A DNA stretch of 40,490 nucleotides from a virus: positions 1 to 40,490 of the IMG/VR virus record IMGVR_UViG_3300048586_000056; one strand, 5' to 3'. Shown piece after piece: positions 7,829 through 27,657 of this stretch. The position numbers were made by a program, and so were the translations under genes. Positions within the stretch are counted from its first letter, which is position 1. Each line of letters begins with the position of its first letter. The notes below the pieces were generated by a model, which was given only the letters and a program-made list of their open reading frames with translations, did no database searches and had not been told where the DNA came from.

Positions 7829-8224
7829 TTAGTCCTCCCATTTATGTTGCTGTTCTTCTTGTTCAGCTATTATCTTTTCTAAATCCATTACTTGCTTGCG
7901 TAAGTCCATATAGTCTTCCATTTCTAGCACGGTAAGTATTGGTCGGTTGTTGCCAGTAATGTGTAGTACGGGTACTTGTGCGCCAGTAGCTTGTGACTTC
8001 GCCTGTTCCCAGAACGCCCATAGTTGAACTTTCTCTTGGTTCTTCACTTCGTCTACATACTTGTAATCGTTAGGCTTCCATATATCGCCTTTGTGCCACT
8101 GCATAGCACCAGACATAGGCATACGGCTAGCTTTCGGGTCTATCTCGTATCTTCTATAGGATTCTGCTACTTTACGTTCTGCACGGTTGCCTTTTTCTTT
8201 CTTACTGCGTGGTGTGGTAGCCAT
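7829..8224 (-). CDS. Holliday-junction-resolvase-like PD-(D/E)XK nuclease
   Basis: A 131-aa protein with an N-terminal basic stretch (RSKKEKGNRAERKVAESYRR) and the catalytic pattern MSGAMQWHKGDIW...VDEVKNQE: D47, E59 and K61 fit PD-(D/E)XK, as in archaeal Hjc-type and phage resolvase-like nucleases. The C terminus is an acidic coiled helix (IIAEQEEQQHKWED). Beside ERF and the SSB-like protein it would process recombination or replication intermediates. It starts in TAATG overlap with 8224-8508. Confidence 0.72.
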   Translation of the reverse strand: MATTPRSKKEKGNRAERKVAESYRRYEIDPKASRMPMSGAMQWHKGDIWKPNDYKYVDEVKNQEKVQLWAFWEQAKSQATGAQVPVLHITGNNRPILTVLEMEDYMDLRKQVMDLEKIIAEQEEQQHKWED

Positions 8225-9538: not shown

Positions 9539-9805
9539 CTATTCACTCTTGTTTAAGAATCTTAGAAACTCATAGGTTGCTCGTACACCAACCACGATTA
9601 GGGCAAACATCACTATGTAGTACCAAACATCGTTTGTAATTGATTTAGCTTCTGTATAAGCGAACACCGCTACTACTAGAAGTGCTATGCTTTGTATTAG
9701 CTGTTCAGCGTTCTTTACTACTCGTGCTGTGGTGCTTACTGTGTTCTTAACTGTTTCTTTAGCCTTGTTAGGCTTAGATTCTTTAACTTCTTTAGATTTA
9801 CTCAT
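9539..9805 (-). CDS. Two-span membrane protein
   Basis: An 88-aa protein. Residues 1-35 are very basic and polar (SKSKEVKESKPNKAKETVKN). Two hydrophobic segments follow, at about 38-52 (IQSIALLVVAVFAYT) and 61-78 (WYYIVMFALIVVGVRATY). It overlaps the end of the ERF gene by 8 bases with GGAGGAC as ribosome site. It may anchor replication or recombination proteins to the membrane, but that is speculation. Confidence 0.62.
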   Translation of the reverse strand: MSKSKEVKESKPNKAKETVKNTVSTTARVVKNAEQLIQSIALLVVAVFAYTEAKSITNDVWYYIVMFALIVVGVRATYEFLRFLNKSE

Positions 9806-10433
9806 CTTGTCCTCCTAGACTTGTTAATACTTCAAGCACCTTATCTGCTTCTTCTTCAGTGGTTACTTGTTCTTTACCAATTTCTTTACGAATAAACTCT
9901 TTCATTTCTTTATGGTCGGTAATTCCACCGTTCCAAAACTCGTGTATGATTTCACTACGCTTTTCATCTAGCGGTGTAATCTTTGCTTCACGTTCTTTGC
10001 GAGTTGGTGGCTTTGGAAAACCAGTTACTTGTGACTGTTGGTATGACCTTGCAGCCTTGTTGCCGTCATCGTCTTCATCTGCAACTATTCCTAGTGCTGA
10101 CATAGCACCGTATCTGCGAGCGTATGTGATTGCACTACCTTGACCTTGAGGGTCGTTCTTAGGTAGTAGTAGTGGCATTGTTGCGCTCATAAACTCACCA
10201 CTCGTATGTATGAGTGTTGTTGTGAGTGAACTTTGCCCGTCTATGTTGCTAACAAACTGGGTAATTGCTAAACCGTTCTTAGATAAGATGGGTAGCATTG
10301 ATTCCATAACTGTCGCTAGATCTACATACTTGCTTTTGAAAAATGGGTTATCTGCTGTTTTCTTTAGCTTTGGCATTTCTTCTTGTACCGCCACTAAAGC
10401 TTTAGCTAGTTCCGCTATTGATTCGCTTTTCAT
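9798..10433 (-). CDS. ERF family single-strand annealing protein
   Basis: A 211-aa recombinase. The ERF pattern is clear: KKTADNPFFKSKYVDLATV, then PILSKNGLAITQ, SSLTTTLIHTSGEFM, and GSAITYARRYGAMSALGIV followed by the acidic ADEDDDGN. ERF proteins anneal complementary single strands and support circularisation or recombination-dependent replication. The C-terminal third is charged and helical, as usual. AAGGAGG precedes ATG at 10433. It is probably the central enzyme of the recombination block that includes the SSB-like protein and the resolvase-like nuclease. Confidence 0.87.
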   Translation of the reverse strand: MKSESIAELAKALVAVQEEMPKLKKTADNPFFKSKYVDLATVMESMLPILSKNGLAITQFVSNIDGQSSLTTTLIHTSGEFMSATMPLLLPKNDPQGQGSAITYARRYGAMSALGIVADEDDDGNKAARSYQQSQVTGFPKPPTRKEREAKITPLDEKRSEIIHEFWNGGITDHKEMKEFIRKEIGKEQVTTEEEADKVLEVLTSLGGQDE

Positions 10434-10860: not shown

Positions 10861-11355
10861 TTAATACCAGTGATTAACTTTCCAGAATTGATACGCCTGA
10901 TAGTAGCTACCATAACGACTTGTTACATACTGGTACTGCCACTTCAGCGCTACAACTGGGTCACGCCAATCACCTTTAATCTTTGAACAAGGTAATGCCT
11001 GTGCTAATGAACACGCACCGCTACCTTTATTGATAGCGTTCGGATTCCAGCTTGCTTCACGGCTTACTATATAATCTGCGTACTGCCAGTCGCTTTCTGG
11101 TACTCCGGCTTGTCTTAGCCAGTCATACTTTGTTCCTGTTATTTGAGGCTTCGGTACTGGTGTAGGTGCAGGTTTTGGCTGCTCAACTGGTTTTTCTACC
11201 TGTTCACTCGTAAGAGGTGGCTGCTTAGAACTCTCAGTTGCTACGTCCGTTGCGTTGTTAATGTGTACCGGAGCTGCCTCGGTTAATCTTGTCGGCTCTG
11301 CTGCAAGTAGTACGAATAATGCCGCCACTACTGCGAACCTGAAGATTATCTTCAT
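10861..11355 (-). CDS. Secreted SLT/lysozyme-like protein
   Basis: A 164-aa protein with an N-terminal signal peptide (MKIIFRFAVVAALFVLLAAE), a Pro/Lys linker (about 55-72), and a C-terminal domain 74-164. The domain pattern is YIVSREASWNPNAINKGSGACSLAQALPCSKI...DPVVALKWQYQYVTSRYGSYYQAYQFWKVNHWY, with likely catalytic E100 and a possible C115-C123 disulfide. It would cleave or bind peptidoglycan outside the membrane. Similar domains occur in Actinobacteria and, to my knowledge, Saccharibacteria. AGGAG precedes the ATG. It is the first gene after the attenuator and structured leader, so it is the lead gene of the early operon, far from the lysis cassette. Confidence 0.78.
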   Translation of the reverse strand: MKIIFRFAVVAALFVLLAAEPTRLTEAAPVHINNATDVATESSKQPPLTSEQVEKPVEQPKPAPTPVPKPQITGTKYDWLRQAGVPESDWQYADYIVSREASWNPNAINKGSGACSLAQALPCSKIKGDWRDPVVALKWQYQYVTSRYGSYYQAYQFWKVNHWY

Positions 11356-11382
11356 GTGCTTCTCCTGTTAATGTATTGCTCG

Positions 11383-11467
11383 TTCAGAGCTGAGGGCCGT
11401 ATAGGAGTTGCACCTATATATCGGCTACCCTCTTGGGTAATTGCTCGCCCAGCCCGTTAGCTCTGAA
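11383..11467 (-). ncRNA. 85-nt three-way-junction leader element
   Basis: The outer stem TTCAGAGCT/AGCTCTGAA (9 bp, 11383-11391 with 11459-11467) encloses two branches. The larger pairs GAGGG with CCCTC, CCG with CGG and TATAGG with CCTATA around a 7-base loop. The smaller is a 4-bp TGGG/CCCA stem. In the direction of transcription it lies 28 nt before the SLT-like ATG at 11355, so it could control ribosome access or act as a ligand- or protein-binding leader. Tests for tRNA fail (no U33, no T-arm). Confidence 0.5.
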
Positions 11468-11484
11468 TGAACACCTGCCTGAAC

Positions 11485-11503
11485 TTCCCCTCAGAAGCCC
11501 TTG
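11485..11503. repeat. 19-bp inverted repeat, left copy
   Basis: TTCCCCTCAGAAGCCCTTG here is the exact reverse complement of 12279-12297. Each copy reads CAAGGGCTTCTGAGGGGAA in the direction of the transcription unit that follows it: leftward leader here, rightward small RNA there. It lies just after the leftward attenuator. It could be a protein operator or a shared RNA element. Confidence 0.75.
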
Positions 11504-11521
11504 TTGTTAAGGTTGCCTATT

Positions 11522-11586
11522 AAAAAAGCGAACCTTGCGATTCGCTTGTATCTCACTTGGTATATTGTGCGACTTTTGCGAATCTA
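11522..11586 (-). ncRNA. Leader RNA A with intrinsic terminator (attenuator)
   Basis: From the promoter at 11593-11621 the transcript should begin near 11586. It ends at a hairpin AAGCGAA/TTCGCTT (7 bp, 8-base loop) followed by six Us (11547-11522). Near its 5' end it carries GATTCGCAAAAGTCGCAC (11584-11567). Its GATTCGC part can pair with GCGAATC (11545-11539) in the terminator's ascending arm, which would open the terminator. Its full motif is complementary to small RNA B. Read-through leads into the 85-nt leader and the SLT-like gene, so this looks like an attenuator controlling the early operon. Confidence 0.55.
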
Positions 11587-11592
11587 GTTTTA

Positions 11593-11621
11593 ACTATACT
11601 CCCTATTTACGCTTATGTCAA
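11593..11621 (-). promoter_or_regulatory. Strong sigma70-type promoter, leftward early operon
   Basis: TTGACA at 11621-11616, a 17-base spacer, then TATAGT at 11598-11593 on the minus strand, five of six consensus bases in the -10. It drives leader RNA A and, on read-through, the genes from 11355 downward. It lies back-to-back with the rightward promoter at 11641. Confidence 0.75.
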
Positions 11622-11640
11622 TGTCTTTTTTGTATTTTTA

Positions 11641-11669
11641 TTGCTTTTTCCACAGTTTCTTGATATAAT
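11641..11669 (+). promoter_or_regulatory. Rightward promoter for small RNA B
   Basis: TTGCTT, 17 bases, then TATAAT with TGA directly before it (an extended -10, TGATATAAT). The -35 is only partly consensus, but the -10 is perfect. Twenty bases separate its -35 from that of the leftward promoter, so the two may compete or share a regulator. Confidence 0.65.
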
Positions 11670-11675
11670 CCCCTT

Positions 11676-11728
11676 ATAGCAGCTCCAGGTGCGACAAAGC
11701 GAATCGTCAAGACTGGAGCTGTTTTTTT
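11676..11728 (+). ncRNA. Short antisense-like RNA B
   Basis: From the promoter above, the RNA is only about 53 nt and consists essentially of one terminator hairpin: CAGCTCCAG/CTGGAGCTG (9 bp, 11680-11688 with 11713-11721) followed by seven Us. Its 24-base loop displays GTGCGACAAAGCGAATC (11689-11705). This is complementary in two 7-base blocks to the 5' part of leader RNA A. Binding would keep RNA A from forming its antiterminator and so favour termination. The RNA overlaps the last bases of the gene 11727-11948. Confidence 0.55.
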
Positions 11729-11948
11729 ATTGGTTTACTAATTTAATGATTAGCTTTGTTCGTCTTTTGTTCTTTCTTGACCGATAGCGATCTGAAAACA
11801 TTTCTGCTTCCTGACGGGTTAGAACTATCTTACCGTGACAGTTATCACAATAGGCTACGAATATTCTCATGCGGTCTTGTTCATCAAAGATGATACTCCC
11901 TGTTGCCTGTTTCTTACCCATGTAAGTAAAGTTGTTTAACACTTGCAT
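11727..11948 (-). CDS. Small CxxC protein between the regulatory RNAs
   Basis: A 73-aa protein beginning MQVLNNFTYMGKKQATGS, with a CDNCHG motif at about residue 34-39 (half a zinc ribbon) and a very basic C terminus (RYRSRKNKRRTKLIIKLVNQ). AGAAAGG lies upstream of the ATG. It is isolated from other genes and flanked by RNA units, and its basic tail suggests nucleic-acid binding; a regulator of the adjacent promoters is an attractive but unproven idea. Confidence 0.6.
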   Translation of the reverse strand: MQVLNNFTYMGKKQATGSIIFDEQDRMRIFVAYCDNCHGKIVLTRQEAEMFSDRYRSRKNKRRTKLIIKLVNQ

Positions 11949-12325
11949 ACAAACCTTTCTTACCCTCCAATTAAAAAAGCCATAGAGTGTCCATATATCC
12001 CTGTATATACTTAGGATAGTTAGAACATCTAAAGCTAGAGTTACTTATCTTTTGAAATACCCCTGTTAATATTTCTTTTATAAGTGTGTGGTTTAGTCTT
12101 TATATTGACTCGGATTTGTCTTGCTCTCTTGCTTTCGCTTTAAGAACGGCTGAACCTTTCGGTATACAGGTCGGTAGTTGCAGGACTGGCAGAGCTACCC
12201 TATTTTTGCCTAAGCAATTCTCTCCGTAGGTTTTTATTAGTAGTACCCACTAACTACTTACCCTCGCTTATTTGTATGCAAGGGCTTCTGAGGGGAAATT
12301 GATTAAACTATTGTACCACTATGGT
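11949..12325. other. Noncoding structured stretch
   Basis: About 380 bases with no gene I can support. Contents: a GGTAG/CTACC hairpin with inner TGC/GCA pairs at about 12172-12198 and an ACCT/AGGT pairing just before it, a run of TTTTTATT near 12230, and the right copy of the 19-bp inverted repeat. The region is AT-rich near 12060-12110. It may hold the promoter of 11727-11948, further RNA, or an origin, but I see no decisive signal. Confidence 0.4.
12279..12297. repeat. 19-bp inverted repeat, right copy
   Basis: CAAGGGCTTCTGAGGGGAA, exact reverse complement of 11485-11503. It ends 28 bases before the -35 of the rightward promoter at 12326, a usual location for an activator or upstream regulator site. 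Confidence 0.75.
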
Positions 12326-12354
12326 TTGACAATTACAAGTAGTTACTATACAAT
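12326..12354 (+). promoter_or_regulatory. Consensus-like promoter for small RNA C
   Basis: A perfect TTGACA, 17-base spacer, TACAAT on the plus strand. No plus-strand gene follows, only a short RNA and a terminator, so the promoter most likely serves a noncoding RNA. Confidence 0.75.
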
Positions 12355-12360
12355 GTAAAG

Positions 12361-12458
12361 TAGCGGTATGCTAAAGCAAAGTGTTGAGAACACCATACCG
12401 AAAAGATAGTATTGCAATCTACTAGAACTACCAGATCCCTCGCTGGTAGTTCTTTTCT
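12361..12458 (+). ncRNA. Small RNA C, about 97 nt, with terminator
   Basis: Starting about seven bases after the -10, the RNA has a stem CGGTATG/CATACCG (12364-12370 with 12394-12400) whose end holds a second helix GTGTT-gag-AACAC. It ends in an 11-bp terminator AGAACTACCAG/CTGGTAGTTCT (12424-12434 with 12443-12453) with loop ATCCCTCG and a TTTT tail. The loop contains UCCCUC. A 13-codon frame (MLKQSVENTIPKR) begins inside the first stem, without a good ribosome site. It is transcribed against the minus-strand genes that end at 12457. Confidence 0.6.
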
Positions 12459-27022: not shown

Positions 27023-27051
27023 ATTATAGTACATTGTTGTGTATTTGTCAA
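27023..27051 (-). promoter_or_regulatory. Consensus promoter giving a leaderless CAP mRNA
   Basis: Perfect TTGACA (27051-27046), 17-base spacer, perfect TATAAT (27028-27023) on the minus strand. Six bases separate the -10 from the ATG at 27016, so transcription should begin on the A of that ATG. No ribosome site fits between promoter and start. Confidence 0.8.
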
Positions 27052-27249
27052 TGACCGTTAATCTTCTTGTAAAACCTAATTATCAAGGAACTCTGAATTA
27101 TCAGTTGTTAAATGATAGTTCTTTCTCTTGGCTTCGTAGAGCTTCCTTTAGCTTAGGTACAAGTGTAAAGTTGAATCTGAACTAGAGATGCCGATGTAAC
27201 GGTTGTCTGTACTTATAATTATAGCATAAATTAACTGATATAATAAGCC
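27052..27249. other. Noncoding stretch before the CAP promoter
   Basis: About 200 bases without a gene. On the minus strand an extended -10 (TGCTATAAT, 27226-27218) could start a transcript near 27212 that runs into the CAP gene. It could fold with GAACT-ATCA...TGAT-A...AGTTC at about 27085-27122. On the plus strand TGATATAAT at 27236-27244 is an extended -10 pointing to RNA F. Confidence 0.4.
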
Positions 27250-27467
27250 CCCTTTGTAGCCTGGTTACTACATCAGCAGGTAAAACATATAGGTAACTTT
27301 CTATTACGGTGGTTAGTCGTTTAGTGTTAGTTCTCTTTTAAGAGCAAGCCAGGCACCTGGTTGTCAGGGGGTCGGACAGAGCCAGGGTTTTCGTCTGCTC
27401 TCAAATACGTCTTTGTTGTCAATAAGAGGTCGTACAACTCTCATACCTATAAGTGTTTGTACGTTTT
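27250..27467 (+). ncRNA. Candidate structured RNA F, about 215 nt
   Basis: It follows the extended -10 TGATATAAT (27236-27244). Pairings seen: CCCCCT 27248-27253 with AGGGGG 27366-27371, GCCTGG 27259-27264 with CCAGGC 27349-27354, a CTCTTTTAAGAG hairpin, AGAGC/GCTCT at 27378-27401, and a terminator-like CGTACAA/TTGTACG with TTTT (27431-27467). The first helix begins close to the expected start, so the real start may be a few bases earlier. No coding frame is evident. Confidence 0.42.
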
Positions 27468-27477
27468 ACCTAGCTAA

Positions 27478-27577
27478 TAAAAAGAGCCAGTCACTATCTA
27501 AATACTTGAAGTAGATAATGAAGCTGGCGTGATCGCTCTTGCTTAATTGCGTGGGTAAATCTCAACGATAAACTTAC
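27478..27577 (-). ncRNA. Candidate small RNA E with long terminator hairpin
   Basis: A -10 TATAAT lies at 27587-27582 with a weak TTGCAC 17 bases upstream. The RNA would begin with GGGTAA...TTACCC (6 bp) and end in a large hairpin using GCCAG/CTGGC and TATCTA/TAGATA at 27482-27540, followed by TTTTT. It starts just after the terminator of RNA D. Confidence 0.42.
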
Positions 27578-27593
27578 CCATATTATACCAAAA

Positions 27594-27640
27594 AGAAAAG
27601 AGCCGTGCAACTCGTTGAGGGATTACACGACTCTAGGCCT
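27594..27640 (-). ncRNA. Candidate small RNA D, or terminator of the tail-protein gene
   Basis: AGAGTCGTG pairs with CACGGCTCT (9 bp with one G-U) around an 18-base loop with AATCCCTCAACGAG, followed by TTTTCTTTT. This is a strong terminator for the gene ending at 27658. An extended -10 TGTTATAAT at 27655-27647 (the stop region of that gene) could also start a separate 45-nt RNA. The loop contains UCCCUC, as does the loop of RNA C. Confidence 0.5.
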
Positions 27641-27657
27641 GAGTACATTATAACATA

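Follow-up and report, generated by a model that had tools for sequence, protein, structure and literature searches.

The window analysed here, the whole stretch of 40,490 bases, is the record of an uncultivated tailed phage, and practically all of its credible genes lie on the minus strand. Bases 158–257 repeat the last 100 bases of the window, which suggests a closed, near-complete genome; an exact end-to-end repeat of the window was looked for and none was found. At 555–2567, an HNH endonuclease gene apparently separates the terminase large subunit into two ORFs. A very short promoter–terminator unit of ~40 nt with a 13-bp stem (27640–27599, minus strand) was located in a noncoding gap of the structural gene cluster (27035–27657), and a relative (L194) carries units like this one at 8167 and 8611.

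The control region investigated here is located upstream of a gene run headed by a transglycosylase-like gene and containing Erf-like, SSB-like, and RusA-like genes. The features nearest to it on the gene side are the following:

9798–10433, minus strand: gene for an Erf-like annealing protein, on the same strand as the lysozyme-like gene and downstream of it
10861–11355, minus strand: gene for a transglycosylase/lysozyme-like protein, probably exported, the first gene behind the putative attenuator
11377–11473, minus strand: predicted branched structured RNA between the terminator of leader A and the lysozyme gene

The RNA at 11377–11473 has a strong branched fold (−43 kcal/mol, z −3.6) and is without an Rfam or tRNA match. 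A tRNA reading of the leader fold was rejected, and covariance-model matches of the control region to Rfam families were at chance level only.

Upstream of these genes, back-to-back promoters were identified by consensus match, a leftward one for an RNA termed A and a rightward one for an RNA termed B, in agreement with the original prediction. The intrinsic terminators that it had placed at the ends of both RNAs were also found, with stems of 9 bp and 11 bp, respectively, followed by T-runs. The predicted parts are as follows:

11593–11621, minus strand: promoter of leader RNA A, TTGACA (11621–11616), 17 nt, TATAGT (11598–11593), with 11 of 12 consensus matches
11520–11587, minus strand: leader RNA A, predicted start near 11587, ~66–68 nt if terminated
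11567–11584, minus strand: GATTCGC-AAAA-GTCGCAC, serving both as the predicted target of B and as the antiterminator's 5′ strands
11539–11556, minus strand: 3′ arm of the antiterminator, GTGAGAT-ACAA-GCGAATC, whose last 9 bases are the ascending arm of the terminator
11526–11547, minus strand: intrinsic terminator (putative attenuator) of A, with a 9-bp stem and a GCAA loop followed by a T-run
11641–11669, plus strand: promoter of RNA B, TTGCTT (11641–11646), 17 nt, TATAAT (11664–11669), with a TG extension
11676–11728, plus strand: predicted antisense RNA B, ~55 nt, fold of −21 kcal/mol, z −4.1
11689–11705, plus strand: recognition loop of B, GTGCGAC-AAA-GCGAATC, complementary to the two blocks of A

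RNA A is predicted to be the first part of the lysozyme/Erf operon transcript. The promoter of B combines a perfect extended −10 with a weak −35 (3/6), placing the RNA start near 11676. The hairpin of B (11678–11723) consists of an 11-bp stem and a 24-nt loop, with the T-run next to it, and was missed by the standard terminator scan because the loop limit of that scan was 8. Promoters were called by consensus match alone, with A and the RNA C described below each reaching 11/12. As a class, promoter-like sites in the region were not above chance (8 found vs. 8.9 expected), so transcription itself is something we infer.

RNA A contains two blocks, GATTCGC (11584–11578) and GTCGCAC (11573–11567), both within its first 21 nt, and the loop of B was confirmed to match them in the two 7-base stretches originally predicted, giving 14 bp with an internal loop. 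When the B loop was compared with the facing 380 bases, only 1 of 20,000 shuffles matched the score of this block chain, and none of 20,000 permuted B loops paired as well with the 5′ end of A. The motif GTGCGAC-N3/4-GCGAATC occurs at only two places in the window, in A and in B (0/100 shuffles), and the looser form GTG(A/C)GA(C/T)-N3/4-GCGAATC has three copies within 170 bp and no others window-wide. A crude duplex energy test did not single out B (25 of 150 shuffles were as good), because that test allows the stem arms of B's terminator to pair; the relevant tests for B are those that use the loop only.

The B loop (GUGCGAC-AAA-GCGAAUC) is a near copy of the antiterminator 3′ arm of A (GUGAGAU-ACAA-GCGAAUC) in the opposite DNA orientation. 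The differences between them strengthen the pairing with the blocks of A, which was −20.5 for the B loop vs. −13.7 for A's own 3′ arm. The spacers are A-rich in both RNAs (AAAA and AAA), which on the plus strand gives TTTT and AAA, respectively. Since a copied DNA site would keep its letters on one strand, the A-rich spacers, which fit unpaired RNA rather than a copied DNA site, suggest selection at the RNA level.

Co-transcriptional folding of the growing A, with 9 nt hidden in the polymerase, was used to follow the predicted structures of the leader. In these folds, the GTCGCAC–GTGAGAT pairing forms first and the GATTCGC–GCGAATC pairing second, yielding a complete antiterminator, in agreement with the original proposal that GATTCGC can pair with the ascending arm of A's terminator. 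The antiterminator reaches −14.2 kcal/mol with the polymerase at nt 58–59 and is the best fold through nt 68. It is thereby predicted to capture the ascending arm of the terminator before the descending arm leaves the RNA polymerase and, without B, to be the best fold while the polymerase crosses the U-tract. Over nt 58–68, its energy ranges from −13 to −14.2 kcal/mol, compared with no better than −5.5 if the blocks cannot take part; in the latter case, the ascending arm is free and the terminator is predicted to begin forming as the second arm emerges. Antiterminator and intrinsic terminator are mutually exclusive in the predicted folds. The energy of the antiterminator was reached by 3 of 5,000 permuted leaders, and the probability that the terminator's ascending arm pairs upstream (0.77) by 4 of 2,000. 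In the full read-through leader, the antiterminator is kept in the best fold. At equilibrium the finished terminator is slightly more stable than the finished antiterminator (−15.5 vs. −14.5 kcal/mol), and because the two are nearly equal, the outcome, including read-through as the default, depends on kinetics.

A second divergent pair of the same geometry was found ~700 bp from A/B. The original prediction, whose pair A/B was confirmed, had missed this second pair as well as the long complementarities of its leader. It consists of RNA C and leader D (12252–12453), with a match of 6+8 bases:

12326–12354, plus strand: promoter of RNA C, TTGACA-17-TACAAT
12361–12458, plus strand: predicted RNA C, ~95 nt, with an 11-bp terminator hairpin at 12424–12453, z −3.7
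12426–12444, plus strand: boxes AACTAC-CAGAT-CCCTCGCT in the hairpin of C, complementary to the start of D
12310–12338, minus strand: promoter of leader D, TTGTAA-17-TACAAT with TG, predicted start near 12303
12252–12268, minus strand: AGCGAGGG-TAA-GTAGTT, the predicted target of C, within the first 60 nt of D
12271–12300, minus strand: 5′ segment of leader D, with complementarity to two targets, the 73-aa ORF around its start and A in its read-through part
11482–11503, minus strand: the stretch of A's read-through part that complements D
11727–11948, minus strand: 73-aa ORF between both cassettes, predicted to be read from D

With the first 60 nt of D as the target, 2 of 20,000 shuffles equaled the C–D match; this was a post hoc comparison, chosen after the region had been seen. 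No intrinsic terminator that would support attenuation at C/D was found behind the target of C in D. The next segment of leader D has 12 nt of complementarity with the start region of the 73-aa ORF (−20 kcal/mol) and 22 nt, including one G-U, with the read-through leader of A (−42 kcal/mol). The structure model of the 73-aa ORF (pLDDT 47) was too poor for use. Both targets of D have four bases, CAAG, in common at the joint, and for this reason the CAAG-flanked stretch 11504–11941 (438 bp) may be a small inserted segment, accompanied by a 4-bp duplication, that interrupts one copy of a 30-nt inverted repeat and leaves the second copy, at 12271–12300, intact. Alternatively, 12271–12300 may be an antisense segment with two targets.

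Relatives of the phage were collected from IMG/VR, where a portal search gave 64 related loci and an alignment of the structural protein gave 22. The only annotated record matching the large 862-aa protein was MW202577 (Manatee Spring). Neither the relatives nor the phage and plasmid records nor the pattern scans of IMG/VR yielded a DNA homologue of the control region. Specifically, the DNA patterns of the A/B pair and of CAAGGGCTTCTGAGGGGAA returned nothing in IMG/VR. Erf, the DNA-polymerase exonuclease, lysozyme, the 73-aa ORF, the portal, and the structural protein all served as queries for relatives, and the control region was absent from the family members retrieved with the portal and the structural protein. 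One bacterial-genome scan yielded portal relatives alone, in a metagenome bin. In relative G027 (L170), a consensus promoter, leader, and terminator precede a lysozyme with 64% identity across the matched stretch. This leader was rejected as a conserved attenuator, having no significant antiterminator (0.35 vs. 0.30 expected), and no antisense partner of it was seen; by our reading of the sequence, an integrase-like gene may lie upstream.

Several relatives contain short promoter–terminator units in noncoding stretches in similar places. Between the late and early genes of L204 (17960–19560), there are about five tandem short units of this kind, three of them with a common TTTGTGNTATAATA promoter, and nine terminators vs. 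1.7 expected. As antisense RNAs to the facing leaders, the divergent short RNAs of L198, L199, L202, and L203 were rejected, as their complementarity to these leaders in no case beat shuffles. A divergent 51-nt RNA in L202 (19129–19273) shares ATAGACGTAGTAA (13 nt) with the 3′ arm of the facing leader hairpin, which may be a parallel to B/A and could equally represent operator copies. In MW202577 (L150:13540–13800), the control region holds repeated TATCCGTCATT/AATGACGGATA boxes that resemble protein operators.

With moderate confidence, we interpret A/B as a transcription attenuator, controlled by antisense RNA, that acts on the early operon. Without B, the antiterminator would form and the polymerase would read into the lysozyme/Erf operon. 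With enough B, its loop would capture the two blocks in the still unstructured nascent leader and prevent the antiterminator; the terminator would then form and transcription would end at ~11520, ahead of the operon. Because B pairs with the blocks better than A's own arm does, it should block the antiterminator and force termination. This logic, put forward in the original prediction, holds and is more specific in the co-transcriptional folds, and the regulation is still one that we infer. As a guess, B would rise with phage copy number, since every genome makes B, or would be found in a carrier cell; the early genes would thereby be shut down. In favor of attenuation are the second divergent pair C/D, with its same geometry, and the composition of the window, in which no integrase or repressor was recognized among nearly all ORFs. 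Counting against it are the weak −35 of promoter B, an A–B pairing (14 bp) shorter than that of the plasmid systems, the slight equilibrium advantage of the terminator over the antiterminator, the G027 leader with its terminator but no significant antiterminator, and the failure to find, in the data searched, a homologue with both motifs that could have shown covariation.

Three other explanations were weighed. It is quite unlikely, in our view, that A and B form a paired target and sponge or act in RNA decay, with a constitutive A terminator and an operon transcribed mainly from D or elsewhere. The shortness of A, its terminator being the equilibrium fold, and the leftward promoter at D, which could serve the operon too, are all consistent with such an arrangement. 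A sponge, however, needs neither an antiterminator far beyond chance nor one built from exactly the blocks that B targets, and A has both. We find it more doubtful that the bipartite motif is a DNA operator of some repressor, bound at both promoter starts, with the RNA pairing incidental. The three motif copies within 170 bp adjoin two promoters and recur nowhere else in the window, and a member of the family, MW202577, has the repeated TATCCGTCATT boxes noted above. Yet the spacer varies in both length and letters (TTTT, AAA, ACAA), the site is not palindromic, and no HTH protein was recognized. An operator also does not predict copies that coincide exactly with the ascending arm of the terminator and with its antiterminator partner, and this reading is weakened. 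The least credible explanation is that B arose from A's 3′ arm by neutral inverted duplication and that its complementarity has no role. The near identity of the two in opposite orientation, the abundance of inverted repeats here (including a 22-nt pair), and the lack of any conservation found would allow this. Against it, a strong terminator hairpin with a predicted promoter of its own carries the copy in its loop, the differences of the copy improve the pairing with the blocks, and the same design appears in C/D.

Antisense transcription attenuation, the mode of action preferred here, is a familiar mechanism of a few plasmids and, among phages, mainly of P4. In pT181 and pIP501, the antisense RNA is the opposite strand of its target. 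These plasmids use a short antisense RNA that binds a nascent leader with an antiterminator sequence, so that a terminator forms before the gene (PMC3753616), and they are listed as antisense attenuators of plasmid rep genes (PMC5415839); in pT181, binding occurs through kissing hairpins (PMC3753616). A/B resembles them in its predicted leader, with exclusive antiterminator and terminator, and in an antisense RNA complementary to an antiterminator strand. It differs in that B comes from a separate divergent copy ~100 bp away and, as the original prediction had recognized, does not overlap its target (11676–11728 vs. 11567–11584). Unlike in pT181, B would pair over 7+7 bp with the unstructured 5′ end of A, and the genes controlled would be phage early genes, lysozyme-like and Erf, rather than a plasmid replication initiator.

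In the immunity of phage P4, the CI RNA acts by pairing with leader sequences, so that transcription of the replication operon terminates prematurely; it is processed from the untranslated transcript under its control and has two sites, seqA and seqC (PMC4825925). A/B likewise involves a phage RNA pairing with a leader and a predicted premature termination, whereas B lies on the other strand and has its own predicted promoter and terminator instead of being processed from the leader. The c4 RNA of P1 and P7 is made from the same transcript as its target, the ant mRNA. It is a small phage antisense RNA that acts on this mRNA and whose complementary sequences are presumed to be located in loops (PMC12197685). 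B shares its small size and a complementary sequence in a loop, and differs from it in that the predicted effect is intrinsic termination. A/B would work like pT181/pIP501 and P4 CI and be a member of neither, because B is neither the opposite strand of its target nor processed from the leader; antisense transcription attenuation is its most likely mode of action. The account best supported by the sequence, the complementarity, and the predicted folds is such attenuation by a divergent, separately encoded regulator that would mimic the 3′ arm of the antiterminator, with transcription, binding, termination, and biological role all predicted from these.

A broader and speculative proposal, which we consider unlikely, is that a stacked RNA circuit (B on A, C on D, and the D leader, able to cover the start of the 73-aa ORF and the read-through leader of A) controls the early region instead of a repressor protein, acting as a copy-number timer or as RNA-based immunity. 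If the attenuator reading is true, switches of this kind can originate from a local inverted duplication and can work in trans. With a predicted leader of 68 nt and a predicted regulator of 55 nt, the parts are small, and synthetic attenuators could reuse the design. It would offer a phage a very compact means of timing its early genes with no need of a protein repressor.
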